Positions 18,142 to 45,645 of a stretch of DNA of 64,000 nucleotides are shown here, piece by piece. The translations under genes and the position numbers were made by a program. The notes under the pieces are model-generated. The model ran no database searches and had not been told where the DNA came from. It saw only the letters and a program-made list of their open reading frames with translations. Within the stretch, counting starts at the first letter, position 1; every line of letters starts with the position of its first letter. The stretch comes from Arenicella chitinivorans (GTDB lineage Bacteria; Pseudomonadota; Gammaproteobacteria; Arenicellales; Arenicellaceae), in NCBI RefSeq assembly GCF_014651515.1, contig NZ_BMXA01000009.1, forward strand, positions 62,001 to 126,000, in the 5' to 3' direction.

Positions 18142-20133
18142 GTGAAAGGTAGTCTACAAGAAACACTTGGTCGCGTTAGGCCCCCAAGAGTACAAATCAC
18201 CTACGATGTCGAAACAGGGGACGCAATCGAGCTCAAAGAATTGCCATTCATCGTCGGTATTATGGCGGACTTATCTGGCGATATTGTCGATGAGTTACCA
18301 CCGATGAAAGAACGTCAATTTATCGAAATAGATCGGGATAACATCGACTTGGTGATGAAGAAAATAAAGCCCCGGCTTATGCTTAGCTGGTCCGACTCGA
18401 CATCAACAAGCTCAACTGAAGAAAACGACGAGACAGAAGCCGCCAAGCCTAGAGCGCCGGTTGAACTGTTTTTCGAGTCGATGGATGACTTCTACCCGAC
18501 CAAGATTATCACCCGAATAGCGTCATTGAATGACAACTACCAGCAACGTAGAAACTTGCGTGACTTGATCGCAAAACTTGATGGCAACGACAAGCTCATC
18601 AATATGTTGAATGAAACGGTCGCGGATAAAGATCAGCAGAAGCAGCTAAAGGCGACCTTCGACGGCAAAACCGTTGATGAGTTTAGTACCTTGGACGCCA
18701 ATGAAGTCACTCAAAAGATCATCGATGATGGCGGCATGGTTTTGCACGATAGCCAGAAACCCTATGCGATGGAGCAACTCGGTTCGTTCACTGTGGGCGT
18801 AATCGGCAAGGGTATTGAGGTTGAGGACGCTACGCAAGTCGATTGTATCGGATTAATTAACAAGCGGATTGACGACATCGACCATGTGCTGGCCGCGGCT
18901 TTAGATGACATCCTTCACCATAAAGCATTTCAAAAACTCGAAGGCTCGTGGCGCGGGTTGCATTATTTGGTGAAACATACAGAGACCAGTAAACACCTCA
19001 AGCTTAGACTGCTCAATGCCTCGCGAGATGACTTGTTTAAAGATCTCACCAAAGCGGTCGAGTTTGATCAGTCAGGTCTGTTTAAGATGATCTATGAGAA
19101 GGAGTATGGAACCTTCGGTGGCGAACCTTATAGCGTGTTAATTGGTGACTATGAAATAGGTCGCTTGCCGAATGATATTAAATTCCTAGAGTTGATGAGT
19201 CAGGTTGCTGCAGCTGCGCACGCACCATTTATCACGAACGCCTATTCGAGCTTGTTTGACTTGGCAGACTTTTCAAGTTTGCACAAGCCTAGAGATCTGG
19301 CCAAGATCTTTGAGAGCCAAGAATTAGCAAAGTGGCGCAGTTTTCGTGAAACCGAGGACTCACGCTACATTAGCTTGACATTGCCACGGGTACTGATGCG
19401 TTTACCATATGACCCTAAAAAGAATCCAGTAGAAGGAATTAATTACAAGGAAACTGTCAACGGCACGGATGCGAGTAGTTTTCTCTGGAGCGGTTCGACC
19501 TTTGCGCTGGCGCAGCGTATCACCAATGCCTTTGCGTTATACGGTTGGACCGCAGCGATTCGCGGTGTTGAAGGTGGTGGCCTAATTGAAGGGTTGCCTA
19601 CCTACACATTTCCCACTGCACAAGGGGATACCGCCTTGACCTGTCCTACTGAGGTGGCGATTACGGATCGGCGTGAAAAGGAGTTGAATGATCTGGGCTT
19701 TATGGCGATTTGCCATTGTAAAGGCACTGATAAGGCAGCGTTCTTTGGCGGGCAAAGTACCAATCAGCCACGCAAATACAACACCAACGAGGCGAATGCG
19801 AATGCCGCTATTTCGTCGATGCTGCCTTATATTCTGTCCGCCTCGCGTTTCGCGCACTACATCAAGGTGATCATGCGTGAAAAGATTGGCTCCTTTATGA
19901 CTCGTAGCAATGTTGAGGATTACCTCAACACCTGGATCGCGCAGTACGTGTTGCTCGACGATGCACCACCACAGGAAGTCAAAGCACGTTATCCGTTACG
20001 CCAAGCTCGCATCGCGGTGTCTGACGTGCCCGGCAAGCCGGGTGCTTACAGAGCAACCGTGTTCCTAAAACCGCATTTTCAACTAGAAGAATTGACCACA
20101 TCAATCCGTCTAGTTGCCGATCTTCCATCTTAA
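18142..20133 (+). CDS. tssBC: T6SS sheath: TssB (VipA) and TssC (VipB) fused in one polypeptide
   Basis: Contractile sheath of the T6SS, 663 residues, GTG start preceded by GAGG. Residues 1-165 are TssB: RVRPPRVQITYDVETGDAIE, ELPFIVGIMADLSG, FESMDDFYPTKI, and RRNLRDLIAKLDGNDKL. Residues from about 235 are TssC: INKRIDDIDHVLAAALDDILHH, FQKLEGSWRGLHYLV, FGGEPYSVLIGDYEIG, then the usual C-terminal half (FLWSGSTFALAQRI, YILSASRFAHYIKVIMREKIG, YPLRQARIAVSDVPGKPGAYRA). A linker of roughly 70 residues joins them. In most systems these are separate genes; here there is no stop or start signal between. The N-terminus of TssC, where ClpV docks in characterised systems, is buried in the linker. Function as sheath is firm; consequence of fusion is inference. 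Confidence 0.95.
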   Translation: MKGSLQETLGRVRPPRVQITYDVETGDAIELKELPFIVGIMADLSGDIVDELPPMKERQFIEIDRDNIDLVMKKIKPRLMLSWSDSTSTSSTEENDETEAAKPRAPVELFFESMDDFYPTKIITRIASLNDNYQQRRNLRDLIAKLDGNDKLINMLNETVADKDQQKQLKATFDGKTVDEFSTLDANEVTQKIIDDGGMVLHDSQKPYAMEQLGSFTVGVIGKGIEVEDATQVDCIGLINKRIDDIDHVLAAALDDILHHKAFQKLEGSWRGLHYLVKHTETSKHLKLRLLNASRDDLFKDLTKAVEFDQSGLFKMIYEKEYGTFGGEPYSVLIGDYEIGRLPNDIKFLELMSQVAAAAHAPFITNAYSSLFDLADFSSLHKPRDLAKIFESQELAKWRSFRETEDSRYISLTLPRVLMRLPYDPKKNPVEGINYKETVNGTDASSFLWSGSTFALAQRITNAFALYGWTAAIRGVEGGGLIEGLPTYTFPTAQGDTALTCPTEVAITDRREKELNDLGFMAICHCKGTDKAAFFGGQSTNQPRKYNTNEANANAAISSMLPYILSASRFAHYIKVIMREKIGSFMTRSNVEDYLNTWIAQYVLLDDAPPQEVKARYPLRQARIAVSDVPGKPGAYRATVFLKPHFQLEELTTSIRLVADLPS

Positions 20134-20172: not shown

Positions 20173-20757
20173 ATGGATCTCGTACTTCTCCAACCAGGCA
20201 ACACCGATATTGTTACCAACCCAGGTGAGGGCGGCAGCTTGATTGCCGGTAACGTGAACGGTTTGCCGGACGACATCAAGCTCGATGGTTGCATCGAACT
20301 GCTTTCTTATCATTATGGTATGAAACAGCAGATGACAACGGATGTGAGCAACTCAGCCAGAACCTCCGGGCGGCCGTCGTTAACCGATATCACGTGCGTC
20401 AAATACTATGACAAAACATCAACCGCTTTTTACCAACAATGTTTGATTGGCAAGCCGATTGACAGCGGCGATCCTAAGGCGCCAACTAAACTGTTTCTAT
20501 TACGTAACGCGCCAGGCAAGGATGATACCAATACGATTGCCAACATCATGACAATTGAAATGCAGAACGCCATGATCAGTTCTATTGAATGCCAATCCCA
20601 TCCCAATGATATGGCGACTGAGCAGTTCACATTAAACTTCACGGATATCCAATGGACTTACTCAGCGCAACTGGCGGATGCAACCATAAAAGGCCAAAAG
20701 ATCGCGAATTGGAGCGTGGCCCGCAATCGCCCATCGGCGTTTACCACTTACTCTTAG
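20173..20757 (+). CDS. tssD: Hcp family tube protein (TssD)
   Basis: Forms the hexameric-ring inner tube that the sheath propels. The 194-residue protein has the Hcp beta-barrel pattern: IKLDGCIELLSYHYGM near residue 40, SLTDITCVKYYDKTSTAFYQQCLIGKP (the common FTKxxDKSSPxLxxAxxxG region), and IECQSHPNDMATEQFTLNFTDIQWTY (family ExVSLxFxxIxWTY). It is about 20-30 residues longer than classical Hcp. AGGTGA lies 6 nt before the start. It follows the sheath gene directly, as usual. Confidence 0.92.
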   Translation: MDLVLLQPGNTDIVTNPGEGGSLIAGNVNGLPDDIKLDGCIELLSYHYGMKQQMTTDVSNSARTSGRPSLTDITCVKYYDKTSTAFYQQCLIGKPIDSGDPKAPTKLFLLRNAPGKDDTNTIANIMTIEMQNAMISSIECQSHPNDMATEQFTLNFTDIQWTYSAQLADATIKGQKIANWSVARNRPSAFTTYS

Positions 20758-20785: not shown

Positions 20786-21205
20786 ATGCGATCATTGTTT
20801 GACCGAATAGCGAAACCCGCGGCTCAGAGTCTCCCACTGCCTGACCAGGTTCTCTGTGACGAGTTAGCCTCGGTAGAGGCAGAGTTGAATCGACTGCTCA
20901 ATACACGCTCTTACATAGCAGGCACAACGCGACGCCGCTCGCGAACCGTCGTCGACTATGGCCTCGACAGCATAGTCAATGCAGGTTCAACGCTGAACAG
21001 TCGAGTCAGCGAAGTGGTCGAAGGCGTTAAATCCGCAATCGACACTTATGAGCCTAGATTAGAAAATATTCTGGTTCGAGGTGTACTCCAAGATGGCGAC
21101 CCCACCAAGCTGCTCGTCAACGTCAAGGCACGGTTACGCCAGAGTCAAACACCCATACATTTTCAAATACCGATCGCCATGCCAACGAAGCATGCAATGA
21201 CATGA
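20786..21205 (+). CDS. tssE: T6SS baseplate protein TssE (gp25-like)
   Basis: A 139-residue gp25/TssE-family baseplate wedge protein that helps initiate sheath assembly. Features: SLFDRI at the start, ASVEAELNRLLNTRS, VVDYGLDSI (family pattern SVLNYGLPD), and ISTYEPRL-like IDTYEPRLENILV, ending with the gp25 strand QTPIHFQIPIA. Its TGA overlaps the tssF start (ATGA), indicating translational coupling. GGAG precedes the ATG. Confidence 0.92.
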   Translation: MRSLFDRIAKPAAQSLPLPDQVLCDELASVEAELNRLLNTRSYIAGTTRRRSRTVVDYGLDSIVNAGSTLNSRVSEVVEGVKSAIDTYEPRLENILVRGVLQDGDPTKLLVNVKARLRQSQTPIHFQIPIAMPTKHAMT

Positions 21206-23082
21206 TTTCGAACGGAAATGAAAAGGTCATTGACTACTTTTTGTCAGAGTTACAATCTCTGCGTAAACGTGCCGTACAGTTTTCACAAGACTACTCTGAA
21301 GTCGCAGATGAATTGCGTCTGGGCGGCGGGCGCTCAGACGATCCGCATGTTGAAATGCTACTACAATCGTTTGCGTATCTCACCGCGCGCTTGCGCTATA
21401 ACTTGGATTCCGACCTTCCGGAAATCCCCACAAATTTGCTTCGGCATTTATATCCACACCTTGAAACACCACTGCCATCAATGGCTGTGGTGCAACTTGA
21501 TCCATTCCCTGAGTCCGTGGATTTTAAGGATGGTTACCCGTTAAAACGGGGCAGACAATTCAAACGGCAGGTAACCGGCAGAGACAATATAGCCTACGAT
21601 TGCTATTTACGAACGGCACAGGATACTGAGCTCTGGCCGATTAAGATCGTCCAAGCACAACTGCAACCAACCAATCGATTTGAACAAATCGAATTGTTAA
21701 ACAAAGATGTTCGTTCTGTGCTTCACCTCCGGTTACAAACAACCAGCGATATTGAATTCAGTGAGCTGAATCTGGAACGTTTACGCTTGTTTATTAACTC
21801 AGCGTTGGGGCGAAGCTGTTTCAGGCTGTACGATCGGCTCCATCGTAATTTGAACTCGGTCATCTATCGCGGATCAGAAAACAACGACTTTAAAACTGCG
21901 GATATCTCCTGGCTAGGGTTCGAACCAGGCCACGCTATTTTACCGTACAGTAAGCGATCTCACCCGGGCTATCGCCTGTTACAGGAATACTTTGCTTTTC
22001 CCGAAAAATTTATGTTTTTTGAGATCAACAACATACAGAGCACGGATGTTGGGAATCAGCTTGACCTTTATTTCTTATTTGATGTTGACCTGTCAAATGA
22101 AAACATCCTCTCTGATGACAGTTTGTTGTTGAACTGTGTACCGACCATTAATCTGTTTCATACCGTCACTGAGCCTGTGCGGCTAAACCAACGCGAATTT
22201 GAATACCTGCTTATCCCCGATGTGCGTCAGTATCGCGCCTGTGAGATTCACTCGATCAATAAGGTGGTCGGCACGGATGTGCAGGGTCGATCAACGGAAA
22301 TACAGGCCTTTTTACCGGAGCGTGATATTTACCGAATGGAACAGGGGTCTGATTATTGGTCATCTCGTCGTGACTACCCTGAACTGAAACGGTTTCCCGG
22401 CACCGAAACCTTCATCTCGTTTCACGATCAGCGCTTCAATGTATCGCTACCCGCCACCGAATCTATCTATGCGGAAGTGACGTGCACCAATCGCGATGTG
22501 GTTCGAAATATGCGCCCCGGTACCAGTTTGCGTCTTGTTGGCGAAGGGCCGGCCAATGAAGCGCTGCTGGTCACTAAACCGACCCGGTATCAAGAACCAG
22601 CCGTCAGGGGAAAACAACCCTGGGAGTTGGTATCTCAGCTCACACTCAACTTTGCGTCGCTGAGCGGCTCACTCAACCGGCCTGACAGCGAACATGGGTC
22701 TGCTCGGGAGAATGCGGGTCAAACATCGCAACAGGAAAACGTCCTGATGGTACAAAACCTGCTGCGAATGTACAGCGATGCCGATAACTTAAACCACCAA
22801 TCATTGGTCGATTCCATCATCAATATTCAGGCCGAACCCAGTGTTGCGCATACCGGGCTCGACGCTTGGCGTGGATTCACACAAGGCATGGCGATCACAC
22901 TGCTGGTCGACGAATCGAGACTCGACCATACCAGCGTGTACTTGATGAGCGAGATATTGCACCGTTTTTTTGCGCTTTACACCACCGTCAACTCTTTTGT
23001 AAGTCTAACCCTATTTAGTATTCAACGTGACGAGGCAATCAAAACATGGCCACCATTGATGGGCGAGAGAGCTCTTCTGTAA
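21202..23082 (+). CDS. tssF: T6SS baseplate protein TssF
   Basis: A 626-residue wedge component. The N-terminus carries the family block YFLSELQSLRKRAVQFSQDY followed by DPHVEMLLQSFAYLTARLRYNLD and LLRHLYPHLETPLPSMAVVQ. The middle shows the usual beta-domain with DYWSSRRD, and the C-terminal part ends with a TssF-like MSEILHRFFALYTTVNSFVSL. Starts inside the tssE stop (ATGA) and overlaps tssG by 37 nt, so the three baseplate genes are translated as a unit. Confidence 0.94.
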   Translation: MISNGNEKVIDYFLSELQSLRKRAVQFSQDYSEVADELRLGGGRSDDPHVEMLLQSFAYLTARLRYNLDSDLPEIPTNLLRHLYPHLETPLPSMAVVQLDPFPESVDFKDGYPLKRGRQFKRQVTGRDNIAYDCYLRTAQDTELWPIKIVQAQLQPTNRFEQIELLNKDVRSVLHLRLQTTSDIEFSELNLERLRLFINSALGRSCFRLYDRLHRNLNSVIYRGSENNDFKTADISWLGFEPGHAILPYSKRSHPGYRLLQEYFAFPEKFMFFEINNIQSTDVGNQLDLYFLFDVDLSNENILSDDSLLLNCVPTINLFHTVTEPVRLNQREFEYLLIPDVRQYRACEIHSINKVVGTDVQGRSTEIQAFLPERDIYRMEQGSDYWSSRRDYPELKRFPGTETFISFHDQRFNVSLPATESIYAEVTCTNRDVVRNMRPGTSLRLVGEGPANEALLVTKPTRYQEPAVRGKQPWELVSQLTLNFASLSGSLNRPDSEHGSARENAGQTSQQENVLMVQNLLRMYSDADNLNHQSLVDSIINIQAEPSVAHTGLDAWRGFTQGMAITLLVDESRLDHTSVYLMSEILHRFFALYTTVNSFVSLTLFSIQRDEAIKTWPPLMGERALL

Positions 23083-24092
23083 GGCGTGGCCTTCAAGGTC
23101 ATCCTTCGTACTACAATTTCTACCAAGCGGTTAGCCTGCTGGCTGCACAACCCAACGTCGACGACGGTGGGCTGGAACAGCTTGACCGGCATATTCGATT
23201 TAAAACCGAAATCGGTGGTCAGTTTCCACCCAACGATATCGCGAACATTCGCGTAACAGGACCGATGAGCGAAATTACCGTTGCGACATTCGGCCTGACT
23301 GGACCGCTTGGACCACTTCCACAGCAGCACAGCGAATGGATCGACCAGGAAAGCCGACACGGCAGAACCGCGCTCAAGGACTTTATGAACCTGTTTGAGC
23401 ATCGCTTTATTGGTTTGCTCTATCTCATCAAAAAACAAACTCATCAAGGACTGCATAAGGGCATGCGGTCGACCTCGCCGATTTTTCGATACCTAATGAA
23501 TTTATGTGGCTGGCGCGACCAGGATCGGGCAGCTTGTCTAAGCCAGGACACGATCGCTAGGACTTTATTGCCCTTTGCCGGGTTAATTGCCGGCGGCAAA
23601 ACATCAGCGGCTGCCGTAGCCAATATTCTGTCTGTTACATTGGGGACGAGTGTGCGCTTTGGCACGACACTCGGCGGGTTTATGCCCCTAGATCGTCGAT
23701 ATCGCGCTGTACTTGCAACTCACAAGAAGGGCAATCAACCAGCCACAACGCCTCGTCTAGGCGACGCTATCGCGATAGGGCGCCGGTCTTGGAATACACA
23801 TCAGGTTGTCAATCTTTCAATCGGACCGCTGGACTATCAGCAAGCCGAAACATGGTTGCCAGGCACCGACACCTACTCATTATTTGAAACGCTCATACGT
23901 TTTTCCACCAATGGGCAATGGGCCGTTCGTGCTGAACTGCAGGTAAACGAAAATTCGATACCCGCTACACGGTTTAAAAACAACCTTAGGCTGGGGTTTA
24001 ACAGCTGGCTAAAGTCTAAGCCAAATCAGTCGCAGTCTGATCAACAGCCACTTAGAGTAACGGCGCGCATCATTCATCCCACGGTGAGTTGA
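23046..24092 (+). CDS. tssG: T6SS baseplate protein TssG
   Basis: A 348-residue wedge protein working with TssF, TssE and TssK. It has the family opening GHPSYYNFYQAVSLLAAQ, the strand IRFKTEIGGQFPPNDI, VATFGLTGPLGPLPQQHSEWI, and FMNLFEHRFIGLLYLIKKQ. The C-terminal DAIAIGRRSWNTHQVVNLSIGPLDYQ is also typical. The N-terminal 37 nt of the gene overlap tssF in another frame. Length is normal. Confidence 0.94.
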   Translation: MATIDGRESSSVRRGLQGHPSYYNFYQAVSLLAAQPNVDDGGLEQLDRHIRFKTEIGGQFPPNDIANIRVTGPMSEITVATFGLTGPLGPLPQQHSEWIDQESRHGRTALKDFMNLFEHRFIGLLYLIKKQTHQGLHKGMRSTSPIFRYLMNLCGWRDQDRAACLSQDTIARTLLPFAGLIAGGKTSAAAVANILSVTLGTSVRFGTTLGGFMPLDRRYRAVLATHKKGNQPATTPRLGDAIAIGRRSWNTHQVVNLSIGPLDYQQAETWLPGTDTYSLFETLIRFSTNGQWAVRAELQVNENSIPATRFKNNLRLGFNSWLKSKPNQSQSDQQPLRVTARIIHPTVS

Positions 24093-24107
24093 TAAGGAGT
24101 CCTAATT

Positions 24108-26381
24108 ATGTCGAGCATTGAATTCCTCTCACCAACTACGCCGGTCGAAAACGTTTACCCAAATAACGACTTAAAGCCGCCCAGAACGTCACTGGATTTT
24201 GTGATTCGTCAATCTGGCATCGAGCTCGACGACCAGTATGTTCGAATTCAATCACTGTCAGCGCGCGACAGTGTAGGCGAGTTATTTGAGTACCAAGTTG
24301 AGTTTCGAGCGAACGATGCGTTGGAGAGCGGCCAAAACTCGGCACCACTTGACTTCGCTCAGGTGATTGGCAGTAACGCGACAATTCGCATTGGTCTGGC
24401 AGAGGATGCTTCAGTTGGCACGTATCCAGACCCGGCGTTTGTCAGCTTTTTCAATGGCATTATCAGTGATCTCAGTTTACAAGAGTCGGGTGTGTACACC
24501 TGTACGATAAGGCCCGCTTTGTGGCGACTGACGTTGGTCAATGATTATCGAAGGTATTCCCAGATGACCATTAAGGAGGTGATCGAGACCGTCGTAAAAG
24601 AGAAATGGGGATTGGAGTGTGACACGAGCGGCTTGGGTTCGCTGGCGACCTATCGCACGCAAGACTGGATGCAACTTGGTGAATCAGATTGGGAGTTTAT
24701 TCACAGCTTGTTACACAAGGTCGGCGGCTTTTTCTACTTCATTCATGATGACACCAGCCACACGGTGGTGTTCGCAAATAATCCCTCTCGAAATACATAC
24801 TACCAAAACATTCCGCCTGCGGGTTCAACCGATTCCAGTCAGGTAATGCCCGTGTTCTACACTTTTAGCACCCAAGTTTCATACGACGAAGAGGACTATC
24901 TTAAGTCATTTCGTTATGAACAAAAGCTGGTTTCACCGTCGGTACGTAATGTGCTTGCAGAGCCGCAGGCGGCCTGGGAACAGAATGCGGTTGCGGATCT
25001 ACATACTTACACCAATGGACCAGAAGACACCAATGGGTTCCAGCGGTATCGCGCCTTTCAGTTTGGTGCCACACAAACGCTGGCAACCACGTTAAACAAA
25101 GAAGACGCCTGGACCATTGAATCTTCGGGATTCCGACTATCTGGCGAATGTACCAGTCCGAGATTTAAACCAGGCTACGTATTTGAAACCCGTTTAGCCA
25201 AGGCTGACGGTGAACGGACCGATGTTTGTCTGATGCGCCCCGAACTCGATAAACAACGATTCGTGATTTTATCCGTCCAGCATCGTGCCAATGTCGATGG
25301 CAGTTACTCGAATCAATTCACGGCCGCCCCAGCGCTTGGCAATGCCACGGAGCTGAGCCTCGGAGCAACGCGTATTGGGTCTGTTTTAGGGCAAGTGGTT
25401 AGCAAGTCCGACCAACGCGCGAAGTATAAAAACCACTGGCAACTTGAAAAAGGACTGCCAAATTTCGACCCGGAGGTAAAAACCTTTTATTCGGCTGACG
25501 GTACACCCTATAAGGCCTTAGGTGTCTATGTTGACTTTCCAGGTTTGGCCATGGACGAAGGTCCTGTTTGGGTCAAACTATCCGAAACCATGACCACGAT
25601 CCCTGAATCTGGCGTCACGGTGTTGGTTGATCGCTCGCGCGATGATACCGATGTACCGCAAATTTCTATGATATACGAGCAAAAAGGCAGTAAAACAATT
25701 ATGCCCAATGGGACGCTCGAGAATACCCGTATTGGCGATGATTACGCTACGTCGTACGGTGATAGCCGCAACATCAGCTATGGAGCCAAATCTGCGGTCA
25801 ATCTGCCCGCCGCTATTGCCAAGATCGATGGCGAGTACGCCAGTGGCAACTTTAAATCCGCACAGTATTCTATTGGGGGAAATTACAGCTACTCATCATC
25901 TGATAAAGGCAAATCCGGTATCTTATCCAAGAGTTATGCCGAAGGGATTACGTATCAAGAGAGTCACGGCGATAGCCATAACAAAGTCTATGCAGACTCC
26001 ACCACCAATCACAGCGAGATTGGCTCGTCACAGGATTCGTCAAAGATTGGTAGCAGTGCGCGCACAACCACTATTGGTACCACAACGGAATCCTCTGCAA
26101 TTGGCGCGTCAAACTCCAACACGGTGACCGGCGCAAGCAATGTCAACAGTCTGACTGTCGCTTCGAATACAAATCAAGCAGTCGGTGTAGGTTTAAACAT
26201 TAACGCCACCGGCTTTGAAACCAATGTGTCATTTGTGGGAATGCGTATTTCAGCCGGCGTACAGAACGAGTTGGCACTACGTGTACGCGGTGGCCTAAGG
26301 TTGGTCGATACCGGGGCTGAAATGGAAGCACGGCTCGACGGCTTGCAAGCACAAATCAAAGAGTTACAACTCAAGATGTAA
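24108..26381 (+). CDS. vgrG: VgrG spike protein (TssI)
   Basis: Trimeric tip protein, 757 residues, SD AAGGAG. Residues ~30-350 form the gp27-like base (YQVEFRA, QLGESDWEFIHSLLHKVGGFFYFIHDD; cf. QYGESDxxFxxRLxEEEGxxYxF). The gp5 OB-like region follows near residues 420-500 (RAKYKNHWQLEKGL...VDFPGLAMDEGPVWVKLSE). Residues ~560-690 are a beta-helix-like repeat rich in Ser/Thr/Gly with an IG or SxxG every 8 residues (SEIGSSQDSSKIGSSARTTT pattern). The last ~30 residues form a short coiled coil (EARLDGLQAQIKELQLKM). There is no obvious C-terminal toxin domain. It is followed by adaptor-like genes. Confidence 0.93.
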   Translation: MSSIEFLSPTTPVENVYPNNDLKPPRTSLDFVIRQSGIELDDQYVRIQSLSARDSVGELFEYQVEFRANDALESGQNSAPLDFAQVIGSNATIRIGLAEDASVGTYPDPAFVSFFNGIISDLSLQESGVYTCTIRPALWRLTLVNDYRRYSQMTIKEVIETVVKEKWGLECDTSGLGSLATYRTQDWMQLGESDWEFIHSLLHKVGGFFYFIHDDTSHTVVFANNPSRNTYYQNIPPAGSTDSSQVMPVFYTFSTQVSYDEEDYLKSFRYEQKLVSPSVRNVLAEPQAAWEQNAVADLHTYTNGPEDTNGFQRYRAFQFGATQTLATTLNKEDAWTIESSGFRLSGECTSPRFKPGYVFETRLAKADGERTDVCLMRPELDKQRFVILSVQHRANVDGSYSNQFTAAPALGNATELSLGATRIGSVLGQVVSKSDQRAKYKNHWQLEKGLPNFDPEVKTFYSADGTPYKALGVYVDFPGLAMDEGPVWVKLSETMTTIPESGVTVLVDRSRDDTDVPQISMIYEQKGSKTIMPNGTLENTRIGDDYATSYGDSRNISYGAKSAVNLPAAIAKIDGEYASGNFKSAQYSIGGNYSYSSSDKGKSGILSKSYAEGITYQESHGDSHNKVYADSTTNHSEIGSSQDSSKIGSSARTTTIGTTTESSAIGASNSNTVTGASNVNSLTVASNTNQAVGVGLNINATGFETNVSFVGMRISAGVQNELALRVRGGLRLVDTGAEMEARLDGLQAQIKELQLKM

Positions 26382-26385
26382 GCAC

Positions 26386-28935
26386 ATGCAAATTATTAAG
26401 CCACTTAAACTCGGACTAATTCATCGCGCACTGTATTTAGATGGGCGTCACCAGCTATGTGTTTCACCGTTGTTGTGGTTTTCCTTGTCTGACGGCACCG
26501 TCGTTCCGGAACAGCTTGCGTGGAACAAGATGATGGCCTGTTTGGACGAGGGCACTGTATTGGATACCGGCGCGCCTAAACAGTTCCCTGAAGTATTGCT
26601 CTCTGGCAAGGCGTATGCTCGTAATCCCAAAAAAGCTGTCTCAATGGAGGTGGGAGTCAGGCTAGGGGATAAATTCGAAAAACGCGTGCAGGTCGTTGGT
26701 GAGCAGTCTTGGTTATTTACTGATCAAGGCTGGACCCTCACACAAGAAGCACCTTTTGACGAGATGGATTTGACCTGGAAAAACGCCTTCGGTGGCAATG
26801 GTTTTGCTGAAAACACCGTAGGGCAGGGTTTCATTAGCCCCGACGAAATGCGCAATCTTGCTGTCGGCGCAAGCGTGTCTAGACCAAGCCTACGTGCCAT
26901 AAACGAAACGCAGCGTAGACCGGAAGACCGAATGACGGCTTCGTGTTTTGGCCCCGTTGCCATTACTGCACCAAGTCGCGTTACACGCGCTGGCACATAT
27001 GACGATGACTGGCTGGCGAATCACTATCCTGGACTTCCTCCGGATCATGACCCAGCCGTATTTAACACCGCGATGGCGGACCAATGGATTCATGGCAAGG
27101 TACAAGGCAACGAGTCATTCGAACTGTGGGGTGTTAGTCCGACCTCGCCTACGATCCAGGGTACGCTGCCCAATGTTCATGTACGTGCATTTGTAAGGAA
27201 GCATGCCCAGACCAGCCTCGAAGAAGTCTCAACGCGGATCGATACCGTATGGTTTTTCCCTGACCAAGACGTTGGTTTGATGGTGTATCGTGGCTTATCG
27301 GATATTGACGACAGTGATGCTTTGGATATTGCATCACTGATGCTCGCATATGAGAGTCAAAAGGATGCACCTCGGTCTCAAGCTGAGTACCAGAAAATTT
27401 ACGCAGCCAGAACAGACCATCAGACCGCGATAGCTCATGTGCTCAATGAAAGTCAGCTTTCCCCACGTAAATCCAAGGAAGAGCAGGCTCGACTAGACGC
27501 AGAAAAACTCGATTCCCAAAGTCAGTTGCACGCTCAAGTAGCGCAATCCAAACAGGCGATTCTTGACAGAGTTGATCCCGATGCAAGTATTGCCGAAGCC
27601 GTGCAGCAAACGCCAACCAAAATATTAGTGCCCCCGGTTCCCAAGCAAGCGATTCAACGCGGCGATGTCGATTTAACCGACACCTTGCAAGCTTTAACAC
27701 GGCTAGCCGAGCAGGCAAAGTCCGACAGCGAGTCTAAACTTGAATCTTTGGATCTAACGCCCAGCGAGTCGCCAACCGAACAACCACTCACAACAAGCGA
27801 CTTAGGACGACGATTCGACGCAATACAAGCCGCACCAGATGTAGGTATTTCTTCTGAGAAACAACAACATCTGCATTCTTTAAGTATCACGGGCCGTCGC
27901 CTAAGTCCGACTGATACCACTGCTTCGGACCAACTTACTCAGACAGCTAGGCAACGACTGCGTGAGGCGGTACTGTCAGCAATGGCTCGAGGCCAATCGT
28001 TGGCTGGGTTGGATTTGAGCGGCGCGGATTTGCGGGACCTTGATTTCACAGGTGCGGACTTAGAAACAACGCAATTTGAAGGCGCTGACTTAACGGGGTG
28101 CCTATTTACCGGCACCAACCTCAAGGATGCCGTGTTCACAGGGGCGAAGCTGGATCACGCTAACCTCAACCAGTGTCAATTGGGCGGTGCTAATTTTTCA
28201 AAAGTAACAGCCGCTAATTGCCAGTTTAAACATGCAAAAATTGGCGCCACGATGACACTCGAAGCGAATTTCACGCGGTGCGACTTCAGTGGTGCCAAAC
28301 TTGACGGCGCGTCGTTTATCAATAGCCATTTCACTGATTGTTTATTGAATGGCTGCCTATTGAACAATGTCCGTTTCATGCAATCTGCATTTATCAAGAC
28401 ATCATTCATCGGCGCGACATTCTTTCAGGCGATGTTCCTTGATTCATCGCTTACGGCGAACTCGTTTCAACAGAGCATCATTACGCGCAGCATCTTTGCG
28501 CAGGTTAACGCCGCCGAAGTAGACTTCCAACATGCTGCGCTCGATCGTGTGCAGTTCGGCGGCGCATGCGCTTTGGTCGGAGCCAACTTTTCCAGCGCAA
28601 CAGCAAACATTATTGGATTTCAGGGTGCCGACCTAACCGAGTCGAATTTTGCGAACGCCGCGATAAAGCAAGGCAACTTTACTGACTGCCCCTTGAATAG
28701 AGCCGACCTGCAAAGCGCGGCGTTTTACCAGTGCGTATTCTCAGGGGCGCGGTTCGATAATACTTATGCCCGGCAGGCAAACTTTGCCGAATCCCTCATG
28801 CGTAAAAGTCGCTGGCGTCAATCGGAACTAAATTGTGCGGAGTTTTTTGGGGTAAACGCCAAAGAGAGTTCGTTTGATCAGTGTAACCTGACCGATGCCA
28901 AGAACCTACCAAGCCACATCGAGGTTCGAATATGA
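26386..28935 (+). CDS. DUF2169-pentapeptide repeat fusion, T6SS cargo adaptor candidate
   Basis: An 849-residue protein. Residues ~15-320 match DUF2169 (ALYLDGRHQLCVSPLLWFSLSDG, then MDLTWKNAFGGNGF and NIHYPGLPPDHDPAVFNTA-like segments), a T6SS-associated domain usually encoded beside PAAR-like tips. Residues ~330-520 are a charged, Gln/Ser-rich linker. From residue 540 to the end, pentapeptide repeats (A(D/N)LXX, e.g. LDLSGADLRDLDFTGADLE) form a right-handed quadrilateral helix. It starts 4 nt after vgrG and overlaps the next pentapeptide gene (ATGA). Probably assembles or loads the spike; mechanism is inference. Confidence 0.87.
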   Translation: MQIIKPLKLGLIHRALYLDGRHQLCVSPLLWFSLSDGTVVPEQLAWNKMMACLDEGTVLDTGAPKQFPEVLLSGKAYARNPKKAVSMEVGVRLGDKFEKRVQVVGEQSWLFTDQGWTLTQEAPFDEMDLTWKNAFGGNGFAENTVGQGFISPDEMRNLAVGASVSRPSLRAINETQRRPEDRMTASCFGPVAITAPSRVTRAGTYDDDWLANHYPGLPPDHDPAVFNTAMADQWIHGKVQGNESFELWGVSPTSPTIQGTLPNVHVRAFVRKHAQTSLEEVSTRIDTVWFFPDQDVGLMVYRGLSDIDDSDALDIASLMLAYESQKDAPRSQAEYQKIYAARTDHQTAIAHVLNESQLSPRKSKEEQARLDAEKLDSQSQLHAQVAQSKQAILDRVDPDASIAEAVQQTPTKILVPPVPKQAIQRGDVDLTDTLQALTRLAEQAKSDSESKLESLDLTPSESPTEQPLTTSDLGRRFDAIQAAPDVGISSEKQQHLHSLSITGRRLSPTDTTASDQLTQTARQRLREAVLSAMARGQSLAGLDLSGADLRDLDFTGADLETTQFEGADLTGCLFTGTNLKDAVFTGAKLDHANLNQCQLGGANFSKVTAANCQFKHAKIGATMTLEANFTRCDFSGAKLDGASFINSHFTDCLLNGCLLNNVRFMQSAFIKTSFIGATFFQAMFLDSSLTANSFQQSIITRSIFAQVNAAEVDFQHAALDRVQFGGACALVGANFSSATANIIGFQGADLTESNFANAAIKQGNFTDCPLNRADLQSAAFYQCVFSGARFDNTYARQANFAESLMRKSRWRQSELNCAEFFGVNAKESSFDQCNLTDAKNLPSHIEVRI

Positions 28936-29996
28936 ATTTGCTCGAATTGAGTCGGCATGTTGAGGCTGGCCAGCCCCTAGTAAATGTTGATCTATCAAAT
29001 CGTGACCTGAGTCAGGTCACGCTCAATGGCGGCGTTTTTCATAATGTAAACCTAGCCGGTTCACGTCTGAATGGGCAGACCATGAATAACTGCATCTTTG
29101 TCGAGTGTGATTTGTCTCGTTGTGAATTTCTGGGTTTGCATCTCGAAAAAACACGCTTTGTCAGCTGTCAACTCTCAGAACTTGCCTTTGCAGCTGGACA
29201 TATGACTGAGTGCGCATTAATGAAATGTCAATTTACCGGTACACAGCTTGAGGAGATTCATATCTCGCGCTGTCAGATTGCCGAATGCGATCTCTCAAAC
29301 TCGGTTTGGCGCGCTGTGACGATAGACACCTCTGCATTGCTGCAAAATACGGTTACCGATCTGCGCATCCTTGGCGGGAAACAAGTGAATGTAGCCTGGG
29401 CAAAGACAGATTTTAGCCGGATTGAATTTGATCCGTCGCACCTTGAGCAGGCGCTATTCGTGGGTAGCCGTCTTACTGCGTGGTCGTTTCAAGACCGTTA
29501 TCTGCTTCGCTGCAACTTCTCAGAGTGCGAAATTGTGGAATCAGATTTTCGTGGTGCACAGATGGAGCAATGCATCTTCATTCAGGCAAAGCTGGAAGCG
29601 TGTGATTTCGGCGGGACTAATCTGACTCAGTCAATATTCAGCGAGGCCAATATTGAGCATTGCCAGTTTGGCGCAGCCAATTTATCCATGGCCTGTTTTC
29701 AGAATGCCAACATCAAACAATCCCGATTTAAGGGTTGTGATCTTCAATGTGCGAATTTTAGTTATGCATCAGTTGCTGACAGCGTGTTTTCCAATGCACG
29801 CCTAGATCGCAGCACATGGGCGCGTGCACAACTGTATCAGTGTGATTATCAAAACGCCGAGGCAAGCCACTTGAACGCCTTTGGCATGCTGGTCGAGCAC
29901 GCCAGCGCCGAGGTATTCCTAACCGCCACTCCCACGCCGGAGCTGGCCGGTCGAGCCGAAGCAGAAAGGTTATTAGTACAACGAGGTCTCATCTAA
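28932..29996 (+). CDS. Pentapeptide-repeat protein, second T6SS adaptor candidate
   Basis: A 354-residue protein consisting almost entirely of pentapeptide repeats (for example NVDLSNRDLSQVTLNGGVFH and CDLQCANFSYASVADSVFSN), interrupted only by a short loop near residues 150-165. Many repeats carry Cys (CDLSRCEF) which is common in such helices. It overlaps the DUF2169-pentapeptide gene by 4 nt and its stop abuts the DUF3540 start, so it is part of the same translational unit. It presumably pairs with the pentapeptide half of the upstream protein. Function unknown. Confidence 0.85.
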   Translation: MNLLELSRHVEAGQPLVNVDLSNRDLSQVTLNGGVFHNVNLAGSRLNGQTMNNCIFVECDLSRCEFLGLHLEKTRFVSCQLSELAFAAGHMTECALMKCQFTGTQLEEIHISRCQIAECDLSNSVWRAVTIDTSALLQNTVTDLRILGGKQVNVAWAKTDFSRIEFDPSHLEQALFVGSRLTAWSFQDRYLLRCNFSECEIVESDFRGAQMEQCIFIQAKLEACDFGGTNLTQSIFSEANIEHCQFGAANLSMACFQNANIKQSRFKGCDLQCANFSYASVADSVFSNARLDRSTWARAQLYQCDYQNAEASHLNAFGMLVEHASAEVFLTATPTPELAGRAEAERLLVQRGLI

Positions 29997-30545
29997 ATGA
30001 ATGCACTACTCACGTTAGCAACAGCCGCGTCGACTGACCAATCAGCGACACTTTCTTTTGATTACATCAAGGCAGTCAACCAGGGCTCGGTGACCCTCGA
30101 TGAACAACACGTTGCCAGAGTGGCGCATGGTCTCGGCATACGACTCGGAGTAGGGGATTATGTTGCAGTTCTAGACACACCTGAGGGTAAGTTTGTTGTC
30201 GCACTGCTCATAGCAGCACCTCGCGAGCAAGCCTACTTCGAGCTGCCATTCGCTGAACAGCTTCAGATTCGCGCTAGACACGTTGATGTTACCGGGGACG
30301 AGTCGGTGACAGTACGCAGCGCGTCGGACATCACCATGGAATGTGGCCAGCACATTCGACTTACTTGTACCAATTTGTTTTTGACCGCCCTAGATTCAAT
30401 GGTCAACGTCATGCGCCATTGGGTGAGTAAGTTTGACACCGGCTTGATTCGAGCAGACCAAGTCCTTCATTCAGACGCGGAGAATCACATTATTACCGCA
30501 AACAAGGATCTGCGATTAGATGCTGATCGTATCAATATGGGGTAG
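29997..30545 (+). CDS. DUF3540 protein, T6SS spike-associated
   Basis: A 182-residue protein. It begins with an OB-like beta segment (VARVAHGLGIRLGVGDYVAVLD), continues with FVVALLIAAPREQAYFELP and a beta-helix-like region (IRARHVDVTGDESVTVRSASDITMECGQHIRLTC), and ends with ENHIITANKDLRLDADRINMG. DUF3540 genes co-occur with DUF2169 and DUF4150 in T6SS loci; the beta-helical look is like VgrG C-termini, so it may extend or cap the spike. It starts immediately after the preceding stop (TAA-ATG). Confidence 0.78.
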   Translation: MNALLTLATAASTDQSATLSFDYIKAVNQGSVTLDEQHVARVAHGLGIRLGVGDYVAVLDTPEGKFVVALLIAAPREQAYFELPFAEQLQIRARHVDVTGDESVTVRSASDITMECGQHIRLTCTNLFLTALDSMVNVMRHWVSKFDTGLIRADQVLHSDAENHIITANKDLRLDADRINMG

Positions 30546-30547
30546 TT

Positions 30548-30946
30548 ATGTTTCAAAATACCTTCTTTCCAGCTATTCATTTTGCGTTCCCAGATGTGTG
30601 CAATACCCCGACGCCAGCGGGTCCGGTGCCGATTCCATACCCGAATATCGCACTGACATCGACGTCAATTCCGACCGTCTTCAATCAGTTCATTCAGGCC
30701 ATGCCAATTCATAATTTAATGACAATGGCCTACATCAGTAACGGAGATAATCCGGGCGTTTTGGGTGGCGTTGCTTCGGGCATGGTGATGGGCCCTGAGC
30801 GCCACATTCTGGGAAGTTTCAAAGTGTTCGCCACGGCTTTTCCGGTGGTGAAGATGTTAATGCCAACCGAGCAGAATGGCCCGATGGGAAATATGGTTGG
30901 CGCCACCCTGTCACCCAGTCAACTCAAAGTGATGGTGTTGACATGA
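30548..30946 (+). CDS. DUF4150 PAAR-like tip protein
   Basis: A 132-residue PAAR-like protein expected to cap the VgrG spike. It has the family opening HFAFPDVCNTPTPAGPVPIPYPNIALTS, then NPGVLGGVASGMVMGPERHILGS and PVVKMLMPTEQNGPMGNMVGATLSPSQLKVMV. There is no C-terminal toxin extension, so effectors would be delivered through other contacts such as the adaptor set upstream. The gene overlaps tssJ by 4 nt (ATGA). Confidence 0.87.
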   Translation: MFQNTFFPAIHFAFPDVCNTPTPAGPVPIPYPNIALTSTSIPTVFNQFIQAMPIHNLMTMAYISNGDNPGVLGGVASGMVMGPERHILGSFKVFATAFPVVKMLMPTEQNGPMGNMVGATLSPSQLKVMVLT

Positions 30947-31437
30947 ACAACGCAGTAACACAAAGCCTGTTGCTCTCGATGATGATGGTCAGTCTATCCA
31001 GTTGTACGCAACTTGAATTGGTATTGCCACGCTACAGTGACAACGCAATTCAAACCGTACATTTAGTCGCGACCGATGACGTGAATCAATCTACGGCAGT
31101 TGCAGTGGATCTTGTCTTTCTGTTTGAGGACACGCTGGTCACACAACTTAGCAAATACACCGCACGCCAGTGGTTTACCGAACGCCGACAATTTCAACTT
31201 CAATATCCCGGTAAATTTGTCGTTTTCTCATATGAGCTGGTGCCGGTGTCACAAGTCATTCTCAAACCAGACAAAGAGCACAGCAAATTCCCGATTCCCT
31301 ACCAGAAGGCCTACAAGGTGTTGCTGTTTGCAAACTACCTGAAAGAGTCACCCGATTACACACTCGATATCTCACCGTTTAAGAAGCCGCGCATTACCTT
31401 AGACAAAGCCCAAATAGACATTGTTGAGACGAAATAG
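30943..31437 (+). CDS. tssJ: T6SS outer-membrane lipoprotein TssJ
   Basis: A 164-residue lipoprotein with signal ending LSSC (lipobox). The mature domain is a transthyretin-like fold: VHLVATDDVNQSTAVAVDLVFLFED, then LSKYTARQWFTERRQF and VLLFANYLKESPDYTLDI, all typical of TssJ. It anchors the TssM periplasmic domain to the outer membrane. The start overlaps the previous stop. Confidence 0.9.
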   Translation: MNNAVTQSLLLSMMMVSLSSCTQLELVLPRYSDNAIQTVHLVATDDVNQSTAVAVDLVFLFEDTLVTQLSKYTARQWFTERRQFQLQYPGKFVVFSYELVPVSQVILKPDKEHSKFPIPYQKAYKVLLFANYLKESPDYTLDISPFKKPRITLDKAQIDIVETK

Positions 31438-31463: not shown

Positions 31464-32813
31464 ATGCAACTTGTAAAACAACGTCAATTTCCAGTCCAGT
31501 GGCACGAGGGTATGTTGTTATCGCCACAGCATTTCCAGCAAGACCAGGCGTATCATGAGAACGAACGCATGCACCAACTGTCGTTGCTCGCGCCTTATTT
31601 TTGGGGATTAGTGCAACTGCGCTACGATGGCACGTCATTACTCTCGGGAACGTTACGTATTCGCTCTTTGTACGGCATGATGCCAGACGGTTTGGTGGTC
31701 AATCATGATGACAAGCTGGACGCCGAATTAACAATTGATCTGACGTCTTCAGTAGCCTTCGAACGCGAGGGCGCTGAGGCATTGGTGCACCTTGTTGTAC
31801 CCATCCGAGACAAAGGCGCGGCGCACCAGTTGTCTGAAATTCAACGCTTTGACTCAATGACGGACAACACACCAGTGGTTGATGAAAACACCGGAGAAAA
31901 CGGGGTAGAGGTGTATCGGCTCAAGCCCCGATTGAGCCTATTCGTTGGTGATACGCCTCCGGGTAAATATGTCGCCATGCCCATTATGCGGATTAAACGC
32001 GAAAACGATGGGACATTTAAACATACCCGCTATGTACCGCCGGTCCGAAGTGCTGGTGCCAGAGACATAACCAGTGCCGCCGCATTGTTCACCAACCTTG
32101 AACGACTGGTGCAAGGTATTCGTCAAAAGGCGATACAACTTGCAGGGATTTCCGCATCCGAAGCCAGTGGGTTGACACGATCGGTGCGAATGCGAAAACG
32201 CGAGATGTCCGAAATATTAGGCGCAGTCTTGCCGCCATTGGAGCTAGCGCTTAATTCAGACATTCACCCATTCGATGTCTACCGCACTTTTTGCGATGCC
32301 ATCGGAAAGCTGACACGGCTCACTGCCAATCCTGTTCCACCCGTGATGCCAATCTATGACCACAACGATCTTAATGTTGGCTTTAGTTCCGTTATTTCAT
32401 GGTTGGCTAGTCTGATCAGCACCATCAAGTCCGAGTTTCATCTGCTCAAATTTGATCAGCAAGATACGCTTTTTAGCATCATGCTACTCAAACAAAACGA
32501 CACAGATACGCTCACTATCGAATTACGCGGTGAGCGCGGGGTCACGGAGAAAGCGCTCATGGAATATGTGAAATCTGTGCGAATCGTCAGCGAATCTAAA
32601 CTCGACACCGCTGATCAAAAACGTCTGCTAGGGGCCCAGCGACGTATTTTGGCAAAACCGATCTTCGAGTCGGAGTCGGACCAAGAGCGGGTAGTCATTG
32701 TGATCGACACCACGGACAGCTATATCCGCTTTGGCGAGCGACTGGTTATTCGCAGTGCCAGTCAGCGGGACGACGATATCCTCCCAGAGTCTATCTGGTT
32801 GTACACGAGCTAG
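31464..32813 (+). CDS. tssK: T6SS baseplate adaptor TssK
   Basis: A 449-residue protein connecting baseplate and membrane complex. The family N-terminus VQWHEGMLLSPQHFQQDQAYHENER is nearly canonical, and LYGMMPDGLVV follows. The C-terminal neck/head region includes PFDVYRTFCDAIGKL and YIRFGERLVIRSASQRDDDILPESIWLY, as in other TssK proteins. An SD (AGGAATATACC) precedes the ATG; tssL follows 20 nt later. Confidence 0.95.
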   Translation: MQLVKQRQFPVQWHEGMLLSPQHFQQDQAYHENERMHQLSLLAPYFWGLVQLRYDGTSLLSGTLRIRSLYGMMPDGLVVNHDDKLDAELTIDLTSSVAFEREGAEALVHLVVPIRDKGAAHQLSEIQRFDSMTDNTPVVDENTGENGVEVYRLKPRLSLFVGDTPPGKYVAMPIMRIKRENDGTFKHTRYVPPVRSAGARDITSAAALFTNLERLVQGIRQKAIQLAGISASEASGLTRSVRMRKREMSEILGAVLPPLELALNSDIHPFDVYRTFCDAIGKLTRLTANPVPPVMPIYDHNDLNVGFSSVISWLASLISTIKSEFHLLKFDQQDTLFSIMLLKQNDTDTLTIELRGERGVTEKALMEYVKSVRIVSESKLDTADQKRLLGAQRRILAKPIFESESDQERVVIVIDTTDSYIRFGERLVIRSASQRDDDILPESIWLYTS

Positions 32814-32833: not shown

Positions 32834-33583
32834 ATGAACGCCGCACTGGAATGGAAAGAACTGAATAATATCGCTCTGTTCAAAGAGTTCTATTGCCGTG
32901 TTCGCCATGTTAAATCCATGATCATGCAAGGCGCTATCGACTGGCCCTCGATCACGGACGAAGATATTCCAGCTAATTTGTCTGAGCGGGAATCTACACG
33001 CTTGCTTTCCTCTTATCTGCGCGCTGCGTTGGCTAGTCAAACCGAATACGTGGCAAGTCACACCAGCCAGCTTGAATTCGCGGCTTACCGCGACGCGAGC
33101 TATTTGATGTGCGCGCTGGCCGACGAGATATTCTTGATTCAGCTCAATTGGTTTGGGCGACGATATTGGCATGAGTTTTCACTGGAATCGGGGGCGTTTT
33201 CCACCGCGATAGCAGGTGACGAATACTTTCGACGTCTTCAGACCTTGCTCAAGAAAGACGTACTGAGCCATTTCGAAAAACAGTTGGCAGCGTTGTTCAT
33301 TCTTACTTTGCAACTTGGTTTTAGAGGTCGCATACGCGGTAACGAAAAACTCGTGAAAACGTTGCTCGATAGATTGCTGCCTAAAACCGGTGTACCCAAC
33401 CAGACACCACACTTGTTCCCGGCCGCTTACGGGTCAATCGTTAACCCAACCAGCGCCACACGACTTGAGCCTTTTTCGCGCTGGCATAAGATCATCTTCT
33501 GGTCGCTGATTTCGTATCTCATCCTCACCAGTAGTGTCTGGCTTTGGATTTCCACTTCGTTCTTCCTCGGGTTGAGTGAGTGA
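32834..33583 (+). CDS. tssL: T6SS inner-membrane protein TssL (DotU-like)
   Basis: A 249-residue tail-anchored protein: a cytosolic helical bundle with YLMCALADEIFLIQLNWFGRRYW and GFRGRIRG, then one C-terminal span (ISYLILTSSVWLWISTSFFLGL). It lacks an OmpA/peptidoglycan-binding extension, so peptidoglycan anchoring must come from elsewhere. Its TGA overlaps the tssM start, supporting coupled translation. Confidence 0.92.
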   Translation: MNAALEWKELNNIALFKEFYCRVRHVKSMIMQGAIDWPSITDEDIPANLSERESTRLLSSYLRAALASQTEYVASHTSQLEFAAYRDASYLMCALADEIFLIQLNWFGRRYWHEFSLESGAFSTAIAGDEYFRRLQTLLKKDVLSHFEKQLAALFILTLQLGFRGRIRGNEKLVKTLLDRLLPKTGVPNQTPHLFPAAYGSIVNPTSATRLEPFSRWHKIIFWSLISYLILTSSVWLWISTSFFLGLSE

Positions 33584-37568: not shown

Positions 37569-38699
37569 ATGGACGCAGTCATATCCGAACTAGAACGTGT
37601 TTTTAAACAACACATGTCAGCACCGCTCTCTGAGTATGTTTCGCCAATCTCTGCCGAAAATCCAACTGGTCCATACCTTGCAGATGAGGAGGTCTACCAA
37701 CGTATTCAGGCCGCACGTGTTCAAGATGATAATTCAACCCCGCGGGGCGTATGGGATATTGAATTGCGCAGTGCTGATTGGGAGGCCGTATCCAAGGGAT
37801 GCCTGACGACGTTGGCGCATCAGAGCAAGGACCTACAGCTCGCCATTTGGCTATTGGAGGCACGTCTGCATACCGACGGATTCGGCGCGCTGGCCCCATG
37901 CCTGCATTTAATTACAGAGTTAAGTCACCAGTTCTGGCCTGACATGCATCCTTGTTCGAAAGAAGCTGACCTAGAACACCGGATTAATCTGTTTGCCTGG
38001 ATCAACACCAAACTGATACTCGCTCTTAAACAGGTCCCGATATCAGCGCGCGTTGACACAGAGGTCAACTACAGTTGGACTGACTGGGAGCTCGCCTTGC
38101 GGAACACCCAGTTGAAACAAGCGCACCCTGAGACAAAATTTGACCCCAAAGACCTTGACGTAGAGAGGGTGTCAATGAATATCAATCAAACGCCAGTGAC
38201 GTTCTATCAAACACTTTACGCCGACCTTGAACTCGCGCTACTTGCAGCGGACAGGCTGGTATACCTGTTGGATGCGAAGCTGGCTGGCGAGTCACCAAGT
38301 ATGGCGGATTTTATCGGCACACTAGAGGAAATCGCCGGACTCGCGTATCAACAACTTGAGCAGCGTGGCAGTCACCTACGGCCAATTGAAGACACATCAG
38401 CCGACGGAGTGCAAAACGAGGACTCGATGCAGATTCACAGCTCGGTCACCGAAGCAACGCAGTCACTGCAGAATCGCCAGGATGCGTATCACGCGCTGCG
38501 CAGTATTGCTGATTATCTCGTCCAGGACGACCCTCACAGTCCTGCACCATACCTCATCTACAAAGCCATTGACTGGGGGCAAATGAACACCAGCCAACTG
38601 TATCAGGAACTGTTTGTACAACAACAAGGGCATATCAATATTTTTGACATGTTAGGGATTCAACAAAAAGACGCGTCACCCGATGCGCTGCACTCCTGA
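37569..38699 (+). CDS. tssA: T6SS cap/priming protein TssA (ImpA-like)
   Basis: A 376-residue protein with an ImpA_N domain: PISAENPTGPYLADEEVYQRIQAARVQ, then DWEAVSKGCLTTLAHQSKDLQLAIWLLEARLHTDGFGAL and FWPDMHP. The C-terminal part (AYHALRSIADYLVQDDPHSPAPYLIYKAIDWG) resembles short TssA classes that organise the baseplate or cap the growing tail. GAGG precedes the ATG. It overlaps the next reading frame only if the most upstream start of that gene is used. Confidence 0.92.
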   Translation: MDAVISELERVFKQHMSAPLSEYVSPISAENPTGPYLADEEVYQRIQAARVQDDNSTPRGVWDIELRSADWEAVSKGCLTTLAHQSKDLQLAIWLLEARLHTDGFGALAPCLHLITELSHQFWPDMHPCSKEADLEHRINLFAWINTKLILALKQVPISARVDTEVNYSWTDWELALRNTQLKQAHPETKFDPKDLDVERVSMNINQTPVTFYQTLYADLELALLAADRLVYLLDAKLAGESPSMADFIGTLEEIAGLAYQQLEQRGSHLRPIEDTSADGVQNEDSMQIHSSVTEATQSLQNRQDAYHALRSIADYLVQDDPHSPAPYLIYKAIDWGQMNTSQLYQELFVQQQGHINIFDMLGIQQKDASPDALHS

Positions 38700-38724
38700 G
38701 CGCATACCAATGGAGAACAAGATC

Positions 38725-42517: not shown

Positions 42518-42519
42518 AA

Positions 42520-43206: not shown

Positions 43207-43235
43207 CGCGGTGATCTCAGCATACGGAGTACAGC

Positions 43236-44303: not shown

Positions 44304-44354
44304 CGCTCGTGCACACGATCATCAGTCACCGCATTAATCAACAGGAGGTTCACC

Positions 44355-45542: not shown

Positions 45543-45645
45543 TTTAAAATGACTCAAACGGCAGAAAAAAGCGTCGCCAATAACTCGAGATTGAGAAGAT
45601 GTACTACTTGCTAATCTCAACACGCGTTAACCAAGAGGCTGAAAT

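Follow-up and report, generated by a model that had tools for sequence, protein, structure and literature searches.

T6SSs are usually distinguished from phage tails by two features, a sheath built from two proteins and the recycling of that sheath by ClpV. The sheaths of phages, R-type pyocins, and eCIS are single polypeptides that carry both N- and C-terminal linkers, and these systems have no ClpV.

Sheath subunits are connected through N- and C-terminal linkers that belong to the inner domain; adding two residues to the N-terminal linker of VipA is reported to abolish contraction in V. cholerae, and the outer Domain 3 has a role in recycling (PMC5797969). The N-terminal helix of TssC is where ClpV docks in V. 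cholerae and related systems, at a motif of the LLDEII type; the H1 class of P. aeruginosa is a known T6SS class without this motif (PMC4239648; for docking of ClpV to the TssC N terminus, see also PMC5048182). The Francisella sheath is reported to be disassembled by ClpB (PMC5481754).

We examined a window of 64,000 nucleotides from the genome of Arenicella chitinivorans in which TssB and TssC are encoded by one gene. In the ORF reading of the window, the frame starts with GTG and continues for 663 codons (663 amino acids) with no internal stop. Pfam matches to the product are T6SS_VipA (TssB) at residues 10–172 (135.8 bits), VipB at residues 241–540 (421.9 bits), and VipB_2 at residues 550–661 (154.8 bits), each far over its cut-off; these are the only Pfam matches, and the phage sheath family is absent. 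The NCBIfam models also score over cut-off, with positions 2–156 of the 160 in TssB matching residues 7–172, and positions 5–473 of the 473 in TssC matching residues 190–662. Both TssB and TssC are thus complete within one frame, and the first-pass annotation was right in calling the gene a T6SS sheath fusion. No other TssC match occurs in this genome. Seven further fused proteins were scanned, and each has the same Pfam domains; four of them also match NCBIfam TssB and TssC.

The junction is shorter than that annotation supposed. A linker of ~70 residues, with TssC beginning near residue 235, is rejected because most of this stretch is the TssC N-terminal region, as seen with NCBIfam and by alignment with PDB 9n4v. 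This nearest solved relative consists of a 493-amino-acid TssC and a 187-amino-acid TssB on separate chains, which align with TssBC at 685 and 129 bits, respectively; homology to the TssC chain (9n4v_A) runs from residue 190. Overall, TssC homology begins near residue 186–190, and the linker without homology spans ~14–18 residues (about 15). Because both halves lie on one chain, a 1:1 ratio of TssB to TssC is predicted.

Table 1. The fused sheath gene, its regions, and the surrounding cluster (gene order: tssBC-hcp-tssE-tssF-tssG-vgrG-DUF2169-pentapeptide-DUF3540-PAAR-(tssJ?)-tssK-tssL-tssM-tssA)
Feature	Position	Strand	Basis
tssBC, fused contractile sheath protein	18142..20133	+	Pfam, NCBIfam, PDB alignment
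tssBC: TssB domain	residues ~7-172		
tssBC: short linker	residues ~173-186		
tssBC: TssC N-terminal helix region	residues ~187-240		
tssBC: TssC core	residues 241-540		
tssBC: C-terminal gpW/gp25-like handshake domain	residues 550-661		
Hcp/TssD tube protein	20173..20757	+	PF05638, 75.3 bits; below NCBIfam cut-off
TssE baseplate	20786..21205	+	TIGR03357 over cut-off
TssF baseplate	21202..23082	+	PF05947, TIGR03359
TssG baseplate	23046..24092	+	PF06996, TIGR03347
TssG-VgrG gap, 15 bases, empty; clpV site in most related split clusters	24093..24107		
VgrG spike	24108..26381	+	PF05954
DUF2169 + pentapeptide-repeat protein	26386..28935	+	Pfam
Pentapeptide-repeat protein	28932..29996	+	Pfam
DUF3540 protein	29997..30545	+	Pfam
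PAAR-like tip protein	30548..30946	+	PF13665
Candidate TssJ lipoprotein	30943..31437	+	Lipobox-like LSSC; adjoins tssK here and in relatives
TssK baseplate	31464..32813	+	TIGR03353 over cut-off
TssL membrane complex	32834..33583	+	PF09850
TssM membrane complex, divergent	33580..37560	+	Pfam N-terminal domain over, NCBIfam TssM under cut-off
TssA	37569..38699	+	PF06812

Judged by its predicted products, the cluster downstream from tssBC is a T6SS in which all core parts except ClpV are found or plausible (Table 1). Matches were obtained for Hcp, VgrG, TssE, TssF, TssG, TssK, TssA, TssL, and TssM, with Hcp and TssM recognized through Pfam. The candidate TssJ has no family match in Pfam or NCBIfam. 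Beyond these genes, a frame that overlaps the end of tssA (38683–40956) encodes a 757-amino-acid protein with a GNAT acetyltransferase domain. Five consecutive frames farther downstream (41495–46707) are possible cargo; the only Pfam match in this interval is a glutamine amidotransferase-like domain (C26-type) at 44355–45542.

The window can be compared with three described arrangements. As with the canonical TssB/TssC sheaths (VipA/VipB, HsiB/HsiC), both domains align, and the cluster genes and TssB linker spacing are equal. In contrast to those systems, the sheath of the window is one chain, its LLDxII motif is lost, and no ClpV was found in the cluster or genome. The Francisella T6SS resembles the window in having no ClpV of its own and ClpB as the nearest chaperone, but IglA and IglB are separate proteins and the window cluster has recognizable TssE, TssF, TssG, TssK, and TssA. 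Like the sheaths of phages, R-type pyocins, and eCIS, that of the window is one polypeptide with both linkers and without ClpV, although it belongs to the VipA and VipB families and is encoded beside a T6SS baseplate and membrane complex.

Close relatives exclude an artifact. TssB is present in nine of the 109 genomes of the window's order. Within the genus, a TssB match occurs in three of 18 genomes (G000, G011, and G017), all three of which are fused, whereas the other six TssB-positive genomes of the order have TssB frames of ordinary length. TssBC of the window shares 65% and 79% identity with the two congeneric fused proteins. Values of pN/pS are 0.10–0.54 in all compared parts of the fused gene, including the junction, with synonymous sites near saturation; in the congener comparison, they are 0.42–0.54 at the junction versus 0.10–0.23 in TssC. 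Because the congeners share the fusion and pN/pS is below 1 on either side of the junction and across it, a missed stop or indel is ruled out. The break between residues 165 and 235 that the first-pass annotation had allowed for is therefore not borne out. Assembly error is likewise rejected, since the genome assemblies of three congeneric species carry the fusion, as do those of many other taxa. One congener (L016, G017:C185) carries an alanine-rich insert of ~48 residues in the TssB part of its fused protein.

The fusion is not unique to the window and was seen in five or more groups of bacteria. In a GTDB-wide scan, 24 of the best 80 of 549 loci are fused, a fraction that is not a prevalence: loci were ranked on a single tblastn stretch, which enriches those in one frame. 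Among these best 80 loci, fused genes come from Arenicella, Planctobacterium, another Alteromonadaceae, Thalassomonas, and Algicola. Further fused loci within the same 80 belong to two Marinomonas, Aliagarivorans, Oceanobacter, Endobugula, Chitinolyticbacter, and a Rhodocyclaceae MAG, and to SAR324, Paracaedibacteraceae, Holosporaceae, other Alphaproteobacteria, and Planctomycetaceae. Among split loci, 56 of 60 have both domains in the same frame, and in 32 a single stop lies between them, although the ranking enriches such loci. L023 (the same record as L016) was dropped from the counts, as were L019 and L022, which have no TssB by BLAST.

Samples by taxonomy give lower frequencies. In a sample of the class (370 genomes), one of 66 TssB-positive genomes has a fused sheath gene, and this is the window's own; the long frame of G424 is TssB alone, and 23 weak TssB matches (22 below 70 bits and one of 99.5) were excluded as another family, ten of them having been examined. 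In a sample of the phylum Pseudomonadota (397 genomes), four of 96 TssB-positive genomes are fused, with the window's included and the three new ones checked. The alphaproteobacterial order of G483 (42 genomes) has 12 fused among 39 scorable; here G905, G907, and G931 (fragments or no TssB) were left out, the fusion of G904 was judged from frame length alone (a 650-amino-acid frame), and G917, a fused genome with a second TssB piece at a contig end, counts as fused but stands outside the fused-only and split-only totals given below.

In total, 35 fused proteins or fragments were collected, including that of the window. A few records are imperfect: the reading frame is broken within TssC in L148, L147 stops prematurely, and L149 and L151 extend past the ends of their contigs. 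No support was obtained for dissemination of the fusion by phages or other mobile elements. No relative of the fusion was found in viral contigs with two peptide patterns. Only six of 50,697 phage records matched such patterns, the three best in two pieces, and the best 20 of 436 plasmid records match in two pieces, which would fit split genes.

Phylogenetic trees suggest that the fused state has changed repeatedly. Four changes are needed on both the TssC tree (86 rows) and the TssB+TssC tree (82 rows), and well supported branches force at least three and at least two of these, respectively. When all fused rows are constrained together on a 60-row tree, the likelihood falls by 49 units (AU p = 0.02). 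A single origin is therefore disfavored, with caution regarding long branches, and the changes could be gains or losses. The window lies within a fused clade of 15 rows that is well supported on the TssB+TssC tree. L017, L018, L020, and L021 are not in the concatenated tree, and 22 close relatives were omitted from the 60-row tree.

In the window's genome, no protein scores as ClpV over cut-off. The best match reaches 827 bits against a cut-off of 885 and is housekeeping ClpB, which scores 1435 bits, over the ClpB cut-off. More broadly, ClpV over the curated cut-off is found in none of 27 fused-only genomes versus 33 of 51 split-only genomes (Fisher p = 3e-9, uncorrected for kinship), and within the order of G483 in none of 12 fused versus 15 of 27 split (Fisher p = 0.0009, also uncorrected). 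When kinship is respected, only two to four independent pairs are available, too few for the association between fusion and ClpV to reach significance. Many of the genomes are MAGs, so ClpV absence may reflect incompleteness. The fused-only genomes have either one TssC match each (G000, G011, G017, G476, G478, G480, G483–G490, G492, and G501–G504) or one TssB gene each (G523, G571, G902–G904, G906, G913, and G914). The single-sheath status of G523, G571, and G902–G914, like some split statuses, was taken from the TssB search alone. L097 was left out of the ClpV pairing, and the fused-only genome G487 holds two ClpV-search fragments that are not assignable with certainty.

Genomes with both kinds of sheath provide an internal comparison. 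ClpV is found in seven of these eight (G475, G477, G479, G481, G482, G491, G493, and G700); the ClpV search in G491 gave only a fragment that is not assignable with certainty. The ClpV gene adjoins the split TssC in G475, G477, G479, G493, and G700, and is on another contig than the fused gene in G481 and G482. Thus, where fused and split sheaths coexist, ClpV adjoins the split sheath wherever it can be placed. Local gene order agrees. ClpV follows TssG in none of the 11 fused loci with room for it. Of 41 split loci with room, 33 have it there under a strict distance criterion and 38 when judged by gene order, which adds five loci with overlapping open frames (L029, L049, L052, L069, and L070); the split loci without it at this site are L035, L063, and L072.

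Fusions are not alone in lacking ClpV, because no ClpV over cut-off was found in 18 of the 51 split-only genomes either; in one of these, G512, a fragment at the end of a contig scores 852 bits and probably represents ClpV. Split neighbors of the fused alphaproteobacteria (L035, L060, L094, L098, and L102) likewise lack ClpV over cut-off, a pattern that fits loss of ClpV before fusion in this group.

The docking site on TssC also differs between the two kinds of sheath. Scored as [LIVM][LM][DE]x[ILMV][ILMVF] in aligned proteins, an LLDxII-type motif occurs in 52 of the 60 split proteins and in none of the 26 fused proteins, with the alignment being less sure beside the linker. The window protein reads VTQKII at this site, and three fused proteins come close to it (DLDKLL, DLDKII, and DLDKLF). 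Together with the lack of ClpV in the genome, this loss agrees with the earlier proposal that fusion bears on ClpV. Split proteins keep the motif in 17 of 19 cases where the genome has ClpV and in four of six where it has none; since most of the latter retain it, motif loss tracks fusion more than ClpV absence. Hydrophobic positions 5 and 6 remain in 24 of the 26 fused proteins. The helix is thus for the most part retained while its docking half is lost, and this conserved helix (residues ~190–200) may have another partner. In five fused proteins (L096, L097, L143, L144, and L145), the TssC N-terminal G-x-M helix appears to be diverged or gone.

In the reading that we favor and consider probable, the product is a naturally fused sheath protomer, a single chain that serves a T6SS operating in the absence of ClpV. 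The TssB half would contribute the N-terminal linker strand and the TssC half the C-terminal handshake domain, all on one polypeptide. Such protomers would polymerize around Hcp on the TssEFGK/VgrG baseplate, and contraction would proceed as in an ordinary T6SS sheath. The covalent joint runs from the TssB C terminus to the TssC N-terminal helix, which is the recycling region, and lies outside the linkers that transmit contraction. Since the N-terminal linker comes from TssB and the C-terminal linker from TssC, this joint should spare both. TssB linker spacing is 16 residues in all 21 fused and all 48 split proteins that could be measured (the pattern was unmatched in five fused and eight split proteins). 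After firing, no dedicated ClpV would extract the fused sheath. We infer these steps of assembly, contraction, and fate from the gene and its relatives. For the organism of the window, slow turnover of the sheath by housekeeping ClpB or proteases is the likeliest outcome, a proposal that we hold to be evenly balanced.

An alternative with appreciable, though lesser, credibility is that only the ATPase has been swapped, with housekeeping ClpB taking on active recycling of the fused sheath, as it does for the sheath of Francisella. The ClpB gene in the window's genome and the precedent of ClpB-mediated disassembly speak for this possibility. However, the Francisella sheath consists of two proteins, the canonical docking motif is lost in fused proteins, and within the Holosporaceae clade, a group of reduced genomes, four that carry the fusion (G486, G488, G489, and G504; MAGs of 0.9–1.0 Mb) have no match at the level of either ClpB or ClpV. 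In this clade, because of these four genomes, the sheath may perhaps be single-use. If so, contraction there would be irreversible, since no Hsp100 disaggregase was found. Sheath genes without a ClpB- or ClpV-level match were seen in six genomes of the Holosporaceae clade and among Holosporales MAGs, namely these four together with G509 and G510.

The chain order of the TssB–TssC fusion equals that of phage and pyocin sheaths. A broader and rather doubtful extension of the single-chain protomer reading is that the fusions represent a recurrent class of T6SS that has returned to a phage-like, single-use sheath of one protein. ClpV loss would have come first, freeing the TssC N terminus and allowing fusion to occur repeatedly.

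It is improbable that the product is a polyprotein, made as one chain from which cleavage within the linker releases normal TssB and TssC. The linker is indeed short, its sequence varies, and it is less constrained than TssC, and the junction measures 23–78 residues in the 20 of 26 fused proteins in which a crude pattern could measure it. Nevertheless, no common cleavage-like sequence is apparent by eye in the junctions, and no protease family match occurs among the T6SS genes (20173–41446). Moreover, cleavage would make a recurrent fusion inconsequential and leave loss of the ClpV motif without explanation. Internal initiation of translation, giving some free TssC and a mixed sheath, is very unlikely. 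In-frame codons near the TssC start (TTG 184, ATG 199, and TTG 201) are accompanied by weak Shine-Dalgarno-like hexamers (four of six), but a strong internal ribosome site is absent, and M199 is not a leftover start because it belongs to a G-x-M motif that also occurs, far from the protein's start, in many TssC proteins of split systems. Decay of the T6SS, with fusion as one step, is equally hard to credit despite the missing ClpV and the sparse TssB matches in the genus, since the frames of the core genes are intact, purifying selection acts on the fused gene, and the arrangement persists in distant lineages.

No characterized natural TssB–TssC fusion was found in phrase and word searches across 5.39 million open-license papers, in keeping with the first-pass annotation, which knew of no characterized fused sheath. 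Literature matches for such a fusion proved to concern fluorescent tags, and the portion of a 2009 genome survey consulted names no natural fusion. The fused TssB–TssC protein is thus an apparently new form of T6SS sheath. Both the two-protein sheath and ClpV recycling are missing together in several lineages, which makes it testable whether the split between TssB and TssC and the exposed TssC N terminus are kept for recycling. Natural fused sheaths also allow contraction to be studied structurally with a single gene, and they are available in named isolates, among them the marine Oceanobacter mangrovi SM2-42 and Marinomonas arctica 328, whose genomes additionally encode a split T6SS with a clpV next to it.

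Gammaproteobacteria also have another family in which TssB-like and TssC-like parts lie on one protein (frames of 480–714 amino acids; L009:1426–2961 and L133–L142). These are the weak TssB matches set aside above. All ten sampled of the 23 have a TssC-like part, their TssB-like part is recognized by PF05591, and four of the ten also match the window's TssB by BLAST. Unlike TssBC of the window, they match TssB weakly (23–100 bits), and L009 has no VipB_2 and falls below the TssC cut-off. Because nine of the ten genomes (the exception being G297) have a separate, stronger TssB match, this family is probably a paralog and not the sheath; we take it to be possibly a sheath paralog such as ImpD/TssC40. 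Two further arrangements were observed. An Azoarcus MAG has a 682-amino-acid open frame around TssC (G521:C165:8125–9033) that is possibly another fusion, and some split clusters contain an adjacent pair of TssC-like genes (G475:C5; G477:C4, C5, and C18; G506:C20; and L155).
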